From Candidatus Rokuibacteriota bacterium (lineage in GTDB: Bacteria > Methylomirabilota > Methylomirabilia > Rokubacteriales > JACPHL01), in the NCBI GenBank assembly GCA_016188625.1, contig JACPHL010000061.1, forward strand, positions 1-7,617: DNA of 7,617 nt, in the 5' to 3' direction. A program made the position numbers and the translations under genes. The notes below the pieces were generated by a model. It had not been told where the DNA came from. It saw only the letters and a list, made by a program, of their open reading frames with translations, and did not search any database. Below are positions 1,718 to 7,617 of the stretch, piece by piece (position 1 is the first letter of the stretch; each line of letters starts with the position of its first letter).

Positions 1718-2015
1718 GCCGGGTTCTGTTCCCCGGGCGGTGTCCCGGCCCGGGGCGATGGTCATTCCTCTAGGAGGCCGGTTACCCGACCCCTCCAGCG
1801 GCCTGACAGCCCGGTCACCCGGGCTGCTGGTGAGCTCTTACCTCACCGTTTCACCCTTACCTCGAGCCCCGAAGGGCCCGAGGCGGTCTGCTCTCTGTGG
1901 CACTGTCCGTGGGGTCGCCCCCCCTGGGCGTTACCCAGCACCCTGCCCTGTGGAGCCCGGACTTTCCTCCCGCCCGCTCGCGCGGGCCGGCGACCATCCG
2001 GCTGCCTCTGGTGCC
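1697..2015 (-). ncRNA. rnpB: RNase P RNA, bacterial type A, with an internal block missing
   Basis: This is the catalytic RNA of RNase P, which cleaves 5' leaders from pre-tRNAs. On the minus strand the conserved GGAGGAAAGTCCGGGCTCC (1970-1952) and ACAGAACCCGGCTTA (1729-1715) form the P4 core. Between them are CAGAGAGCAGACCGCC, AAGGGTGAAACGG and P12 (GGTGAGGTAAGAGCTCACC, 1847-1829). The ends pair perfectly over 16 bp: GGCACCAGAGGCAGCC at 2015-2000 with 1712-1697, forming P1. Other helices visible are a GTGA-capped hairpin (1826-1807, P13-like), a GTAA-capped hairpin (1791-1776, P18-like), and P19 with 8 bp (1755-1748 / 1738-1731). Only 15 bases separate the P13-like and P18-like hairpins. The usual P14, the conserved GGAGCAAG-type strand and P15-P17 are absent, so the RNA is about 319 nt against about 377 in E. 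coli. The true 5' end may be a few to about 25 bases upstream of P1. Confidence 0.95.
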
Positions 2016-3287: not shown

Positions 3288-3362
3288 TGGTGGGCCCACC
3301 CGGACTCGAACCAGGACCGACCGGTTATGAGCCGGTGGCTCTGCCAGTTGAGCTATGGGCCC
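3288..3362 (-). tRNA. tRNA with anticodon CAT (probably tRNA-Ile2, else elongator tRNA-Met), CCA encoded
   Basis: A complete cloverleaf is readable on the minus strand. Acceptor stem GGGCCCA (3362-3356) pairs with TGGGCCC; the D arm is GCTC-AACTGGCA-GAGC. The anticodon stem is ACCGG/CCGGT with loop CTCATAA (anticodon CAT at 3329-3327). The variable loop is four bases (CGGT), the T arm is CCTGG-TTCGAGT-CCGGG, discriminator A, then encoded CCA at 3290-3288. The 1-72 G-C pair and the lack of three G-C pairs in the anticodon stem exclude initiator tRNA. CAT may be read as Met, or as Ile (AUA) after lysidine modification by TilS. The GGGCCC acceptor and the CGG-CTCATAA-CCG anticodon arm look more like bacterial tRNA-Ile2, but this is a comparison from memory. 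It has its own promoter and is probably cotranscribed with the zinc-ribbon gene. Confidence 0.95.
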
Positions 3363-7004: not shown

Positions 7005-7617
7005 GCCCGGCCCTCCCGGAGATCGACCACCGTCACCCCGCCGCCCCCCTCGCGGGGGGCCCCGGTGCGGAAGGCGGCGACGAAGGGGTGCTCCCGGAGG
7101 AGCCGTTCCACGGTCCGCCGGAGGGCCCCGGTCCCCTTGCCGTGGACGAGCCGGACCGCGTCGTGGCCGGCCAGGACGGCGGCGTCGAGGAACTTCTCCA
7201 CCGCGCCCCTGGCCCTGGATGGGGGCGGGCGGGGTGGTGGCGCGGCCCGGGGCCTGGACCACCTCGCCCCGCGGGACCCGGACGGTCAGGCTCCCCGCCT
7301 GAACGGTCACCAGGCCGTCGGCCTCCGCGACGAGCCGGCCGCGGAGCCCGAGCCCGGGGACCAGGACCTCGCCGGCGAGCGGGGCGTCGTCCCCGGTCGC
7401 GGCCGGCTGGGGGACGGCCTCCTCGAGCCGCCGGAGCCGCTGATAGGCTTCCTGGAGGCGTCGGCGGGAGGCCTCCTGGGCCTTGAGCGCGGCCAGTTCG
7501 TGCCCCACCTGACGGCGCGCCTCGGCGACCAGCTCCCGGGCCTGGCGCCGCGCCTCGGCCCGGAGCCGCTCGGCCTCTGCCTCGGCCCGCGCCCGCTCCT
7601 CGCGGGCCGCCCCGCGC
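7001..7617 (-). pseudogene. mutS2: MutS2 3' portion, with deletion and frameshift in the Smr domain (partial at right edge)
   Basis: MutS2 is an ATPase with a C-terminal Smr nuclease domain that acts on branched DNA or stalled ribosomes in different bacteria. From the right edge one frame encodes an EERARAEAEAERLRAEARRQ-type coiled coil (7617 to about 7420). It is followed by a beta-rich stretch with GEVLVPGLGLRGRLVAEADG and LTVRVPRGEVVQAPG, ending near 7242. A different frame then gives VEKFLDAAVLAGHDAVRLVH and GKGTGALRRTVERLLREHP to [12 protein letters not shown], stop 7001-7003, which is the second part of an Smr domain with its HGKGTG loop. The expected Smr opening (a LDLRG-type motif and first helix) is missing and the frame changes between about 7242 and 7201. 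The ATPase part lies beyond the window. Because of the shift the upstream frame runs on into dnaG. It may be a real lesion or a sequence error. Confidence 0.82.

Follow-up and report, generated by a model that had tools for sequence, protein, structure and literature searches.

The RNase P RNA gene (rnpB) on a 7.6-kb contig raises the question of whether a bacterial class A RNA has been naturally reduced, or whether part of an ordinary gene has been lost through a collapse of the sequence. The original prediction, which left both readings standing, was made on the whole stretch of DNA analysed here (7,617 nucleotides; hereafter the window). It held that P14 and the P15-P17 block, including the loop that binds the tRNA CCA end, are missing from an unusually short interval between two hairpins.

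In an Rfam covariance-model search, positions 2009-1699 on the minus strand match the bacterial class A RNase P RNA (RF00010) with a score of 187.8 bits (E = 4.5e-60). The score exceeds the gathering threshold of 100, and the match spans the whole model (positions 1-367) apart from a local deletion that falls between P14 and P18. P1, P3, P4, P8, P9, P12, P13, P14, P18 and the conserved 3' end are intact. The P4 strands are GAGGAAAGUCC and ACAGAACCCGGCUUACAG, P13 is GGUGAGGUAAGAGCUCACC, P1 is fully paired, all three GNRA loops are kept, and the junction contains no N. The gene has a GC content of 71%, and single-sequence folding gives a z value of -6.9, which denotes strong folding and does not discriminate between the two readings.

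The hairpin at 1826-1807 (minus strand, GUGA loop) had been labelled P13-like, and P14 had accordingly been regarded as missing. In the covariance-model alignment, however, this hairpin is P14 itself, which is hence present; its loop, L14, belongs with those of P9 and P18 to the conserved GNRA loops (PMC4264200). The P18 hairpin, with a GUAA loop, is placed at 1797-1776 on the minus strand by alignment with relatives. The short interval between the hairpins at 1826-1807 and at about 1797-1776 is borne out by the covariance model as well as by the alignments with relatives.

When aligned with 29 RNase P RNAs from the order, the sequence at the gap reads ...CAGCAGCCCGGGTGACCGGGCTG and then GTCAGGCCGCTGGAG..., while the extra segment in the intact relatives begins with GGCTCGGYAAACCCCACCCGGAGCAAGGCC. 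The alignments with the order and with the relative G003 place the junction at 1805-1809 (minus strand), with an uncertainty of a few bases in its position. Where 70-85 nt had been proposed to be missing, the gap is 89 nt against G003 (at about 1807) and, taken as the longest gap in each alignment, 66-102 nt against the other full-length relatives.

As proposed, the P15-P17 block with its CCA-binding loop is absent in both the RF00010 and the order alignments: the 5' strand of P15, L15 with the CCA-binding GGU, P16 and P17 are not found in rnpB, yet they are present in the intact relatives. The extent of the loss had been understated, however. J5/15 and the 3' strands of P11, P10, P7 and P5 are likewise absent (covariance-model and order alignments), and none of these four helices has both of its strands. 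Because these 3' strands are absent, the rnpB as written cannot be taken for a functional class A RNA.

The 5' strands of the four helices remain as unmutated orphans on the minus strand, those of P5 (CUCC) and P7 (GGGUG) in the stretch 1939-1955, and those of P10 (GG) and P11 (GUGCC) in the stretch 1899-1908. All 16 orphan nucleotides match 27 relatives, in columns that are invariant or nearly so. Therefore, the loss from rnpB is either very recent or technical, having left no time for decay or re-pairing. The orphan strands should have mutated under an old, adapted reduction.

Comparison with the rnpB of close relatives, which the original prediction had put forward as a check, points in the same direction. 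In the phylum, an RNA over the cut-off is present in 64 of 95 genomes. Full length or nearly so are 60 of these 64 RNAs (including that of G032, which reaches a contig end); three are shortened (G000, G030 and G037) and one is a fragment at a contig end. At the level of the order, an RNA above the cut-off was recovered from 41 of 60 genomes, and the same three are internally shortened, with differing breakpoints. The internally deleted RNAs of G030 (L030, 1501-1825) and G037 (L029, 1501-1791) differ in their breakpoints; the deletion in G030 is similar but not identical to that in the window, and an intact RNase P RNA is found in G019, which belongs to the genus of G037. A lineage-wide reduction of RNase P is rejected, since most recovered relatives are full length.

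Four assemblies in the phylum end inside rnpB (G005, G024, G048 and G057). Such contig ends are mildly commoner than a rough estimate of chance, an excess that carries little weight. The contig of G024 ends beside a partial RNase P match (L040), and in its genus, g17 (G024, G052, G053 and G054), an RNase P RNA over the cut-off was found in none of the four genomes. In G083 (L175, about 330-575) rnpB is represented by its 3' part alone, which is fused within the P16/P17 region to unrelated sequence, and this rnpB is apparently chimeric.

Beyond the phylum, a collapsed-core pattern (GGTAAGAGC, 50-80 bases, CTAGANNAATG) was scanned in 84,980 species genomes. There were 35 matches, three of which are RNase P RNAs, as a sample and not a census, because rnpB genes without the exact anchors are missed and intact RNAs with both anchors are uncounted. 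The three belong to a Holosporaceae MAG (UBA5542; L059, 1152-1449), an Accumulibacter MAG (bin_122; L085, 1342-1811) and the Rokubacteria MAG G030 (JACPCW010000134.1). The collapsed core in the Holosporaceae assembly may represent a genuine reduction, in an endosymbiont. The junction of the window's own rnpB had no match in the other genomes searched, from which near records may be left out. A reduced RNA, if true, would mean that a ribozyme ranking among the best conserved can shed some of its catalytic core. However, the collapsed RNase P cores detected in public genomes are few and all lie in metagenome-derived assemblies, with none in an isolate genome, so that read-level support is needed before biological claims are made on unusual RNase P RNAs from such assemblies.

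The surroundings of rnpB on the contig comprise an RNase H-like gene, a coiled-coil/zinc-ribbon gene, tRNA-Met, rpoD, dnaG and mutS2, in a gene order largely common to G003. The tRNA gene with an encoded CCA, noted originally, is confirmed as tRNA-Met (CAT) at 3288-3362 on the minus strand by the Rfam search and direct reading. Two other joins that lack sequence are found, which makes three in 7.6 kb. In mutS2, alignment with G003 places a frame-breaking junction at 7202-7246 (minus strand), at the start of the Smr domain, with 53 nt missing at 7217 plus a further 9-nt gap. The severed Smr domain (PF01713; 7001-7201, minus strand) begins at profile position 16 in a frame other than that of the upstream part, whereas the two share one frame in G003.

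The other join is in an open reading frame at 2-970 on the plus strand, in which a chorismate synthase (aroC) fragment (2-184; PF01264, profile positions 26-85 of 327) is fused in frame to a YeiH-like membrane protein (215-970; PF03601 by profile search) that lacks the first 82 profile positions and starts at position 83. No other match to either family was found in the genome, and in the three relatives examined aroC is a long open frame of 371-456 aa. Identity to relatives is only 57-58% in the aroC part, and no match to the PF03601 part was found in 12 relatives; because of this low identity and this lack of a match, the left end of the contig may be chimeric. In a comparison with G003 over about 27 kb of coding DNA including the window, made at the protein level with limited sensitivity, no further clear frame-breaking deletion was found, and the assembly trouble therefore seems to be local and not genome-wide. 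Sequence divergence is too high for a comparison of deletion rates across the genome at the DNA level.

The genome itself (344 contigs, 84% complete) contains the rnpA gene for the RnpA protein. Neither a second copy of rnpB, which the original prediction had raised, nor the missing piece of about 90 nt was found elsewhere in it, and PF08745 (PIN_5), the profile of the protein-only RNase P HARP, had no match. Replacement of the RNase P RNA by HARP is thus unsupported in the recovered 84% of the genome. Since RnpA is present and neither HARP nor a second rnpB was found, a working RNA is needed.

In choosing between the readings, a collapse is favoured because the orphan strands are unmutated, 60 of the 64 RNAs in the phylum are full length or nearly so, and two other genes nearby are broken; on the same grounds the naturally reduced RNA of the original prediction is unsupported. 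The locus is very probably an ordinary rnpB that has been locally misassembled, and we infer that the cause lies in assembly and not in a loss from the DNA of the cell itself. In this relative of Candidatus Rokubacteria, the true RNase P RNA would be essential, of the ordinary class A type and about 400 nt long; it would act with the RnpA protein and is predicted to bind the tRNA CCA end via L15. A wrong joining of contig pieces would have dropped about 90 nt at rnpB, from the 3' strand of P11 to P15, this being the most conserved, strongly structured and GC-rich part. A simple k-mer join normally requires overlap between the joined sides, and the little overlap between the two sides of the rnpB junction speaks against misassembly, as do the similar, though not identical, deletion in G030 and the lack of further clear breaks over the 27 kb compared with G003, which shows, at limited sensitivity, that the assembly is not poor throughout. 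Local assembly errors of such a kind are known in metagenome scaffolds (PMC7111523). A chimera of two organisms within rnpB is unsupported, as P1 pairs perfectly across both ends.

The deletion in G030, from the same order, together with a junction without N and the intact P1, P4 and three GNRA loops, would also be in keeping with a naturally reduced class A RNA that lacks both P5/P7/P10/P11 pairing and L15 and is helped by a protein or a trans RNA fragment. This is extremely unlikely, considering that one strand of each of four core helices and J5/15 are lost with the orphan strands unmutated, that most relatives have full-length RNAs, that no copy of the missing piece turned up in the rest of the recovered genome, and that the contig carries further broken genes. 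It is very unlikely that a real recent deletion has turned this copy into a pseudogene, with an intact copy in an unrecovered part of the genome: class A rnpB normally occurs once per genome, and joining errors better account for the local cluster of broken genes. The incompleteness of the genome would leave room for such a copy, and the G051 bin does hold two different rnpB copies, but the second of these may be contamination. The deletion might instead have been made physically, not by the assembler but during library preparation or amplification of a GC-rich and hairpin-rich template, for which the composition and folding of rnpB (71% GC, z = -6.9) would be suited. This is exceedingly improbable, because the consensus contig would need the same artefact in most reads, and the aroC/PF03601 join is no hairpin deletion. 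Local misassembly is therefore the preferred explanation.

Compared with known RNase P RNAs, the window shares P1, P3, P4, P8, P9, P12, P13, P14, P18 and the 3' end with the bacterial class A RNA (RF00010), and differs from it by the absence of about 90 nt of the core and of the P15-P17 block, most likely through an assembly error. Archaeal type M RNA, like the window, is without the P15 substrate-recognition loop and P16 (PMC4919922); it resembles archaeal type A and loses P8 and P6, whereas the window retains P8 and loses core strands. The type P (type T) RNA of the archaeon Pyrobaculum is also reduced, but it keeps the catalytic domain and has lost nearly all of the specificity domain (PMC4919922), while in the window P12-P14 are retained and core strands are lost. 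Cyanobacterial RNase P RNA that lacks the GGU in L15 is similar to the window in having no canonical CCA-binding GGU; in the cyanobacterial RNA, however, only the P15-P16 loop differs (PMC4264200), whereas in the window the helices themselves are absent.
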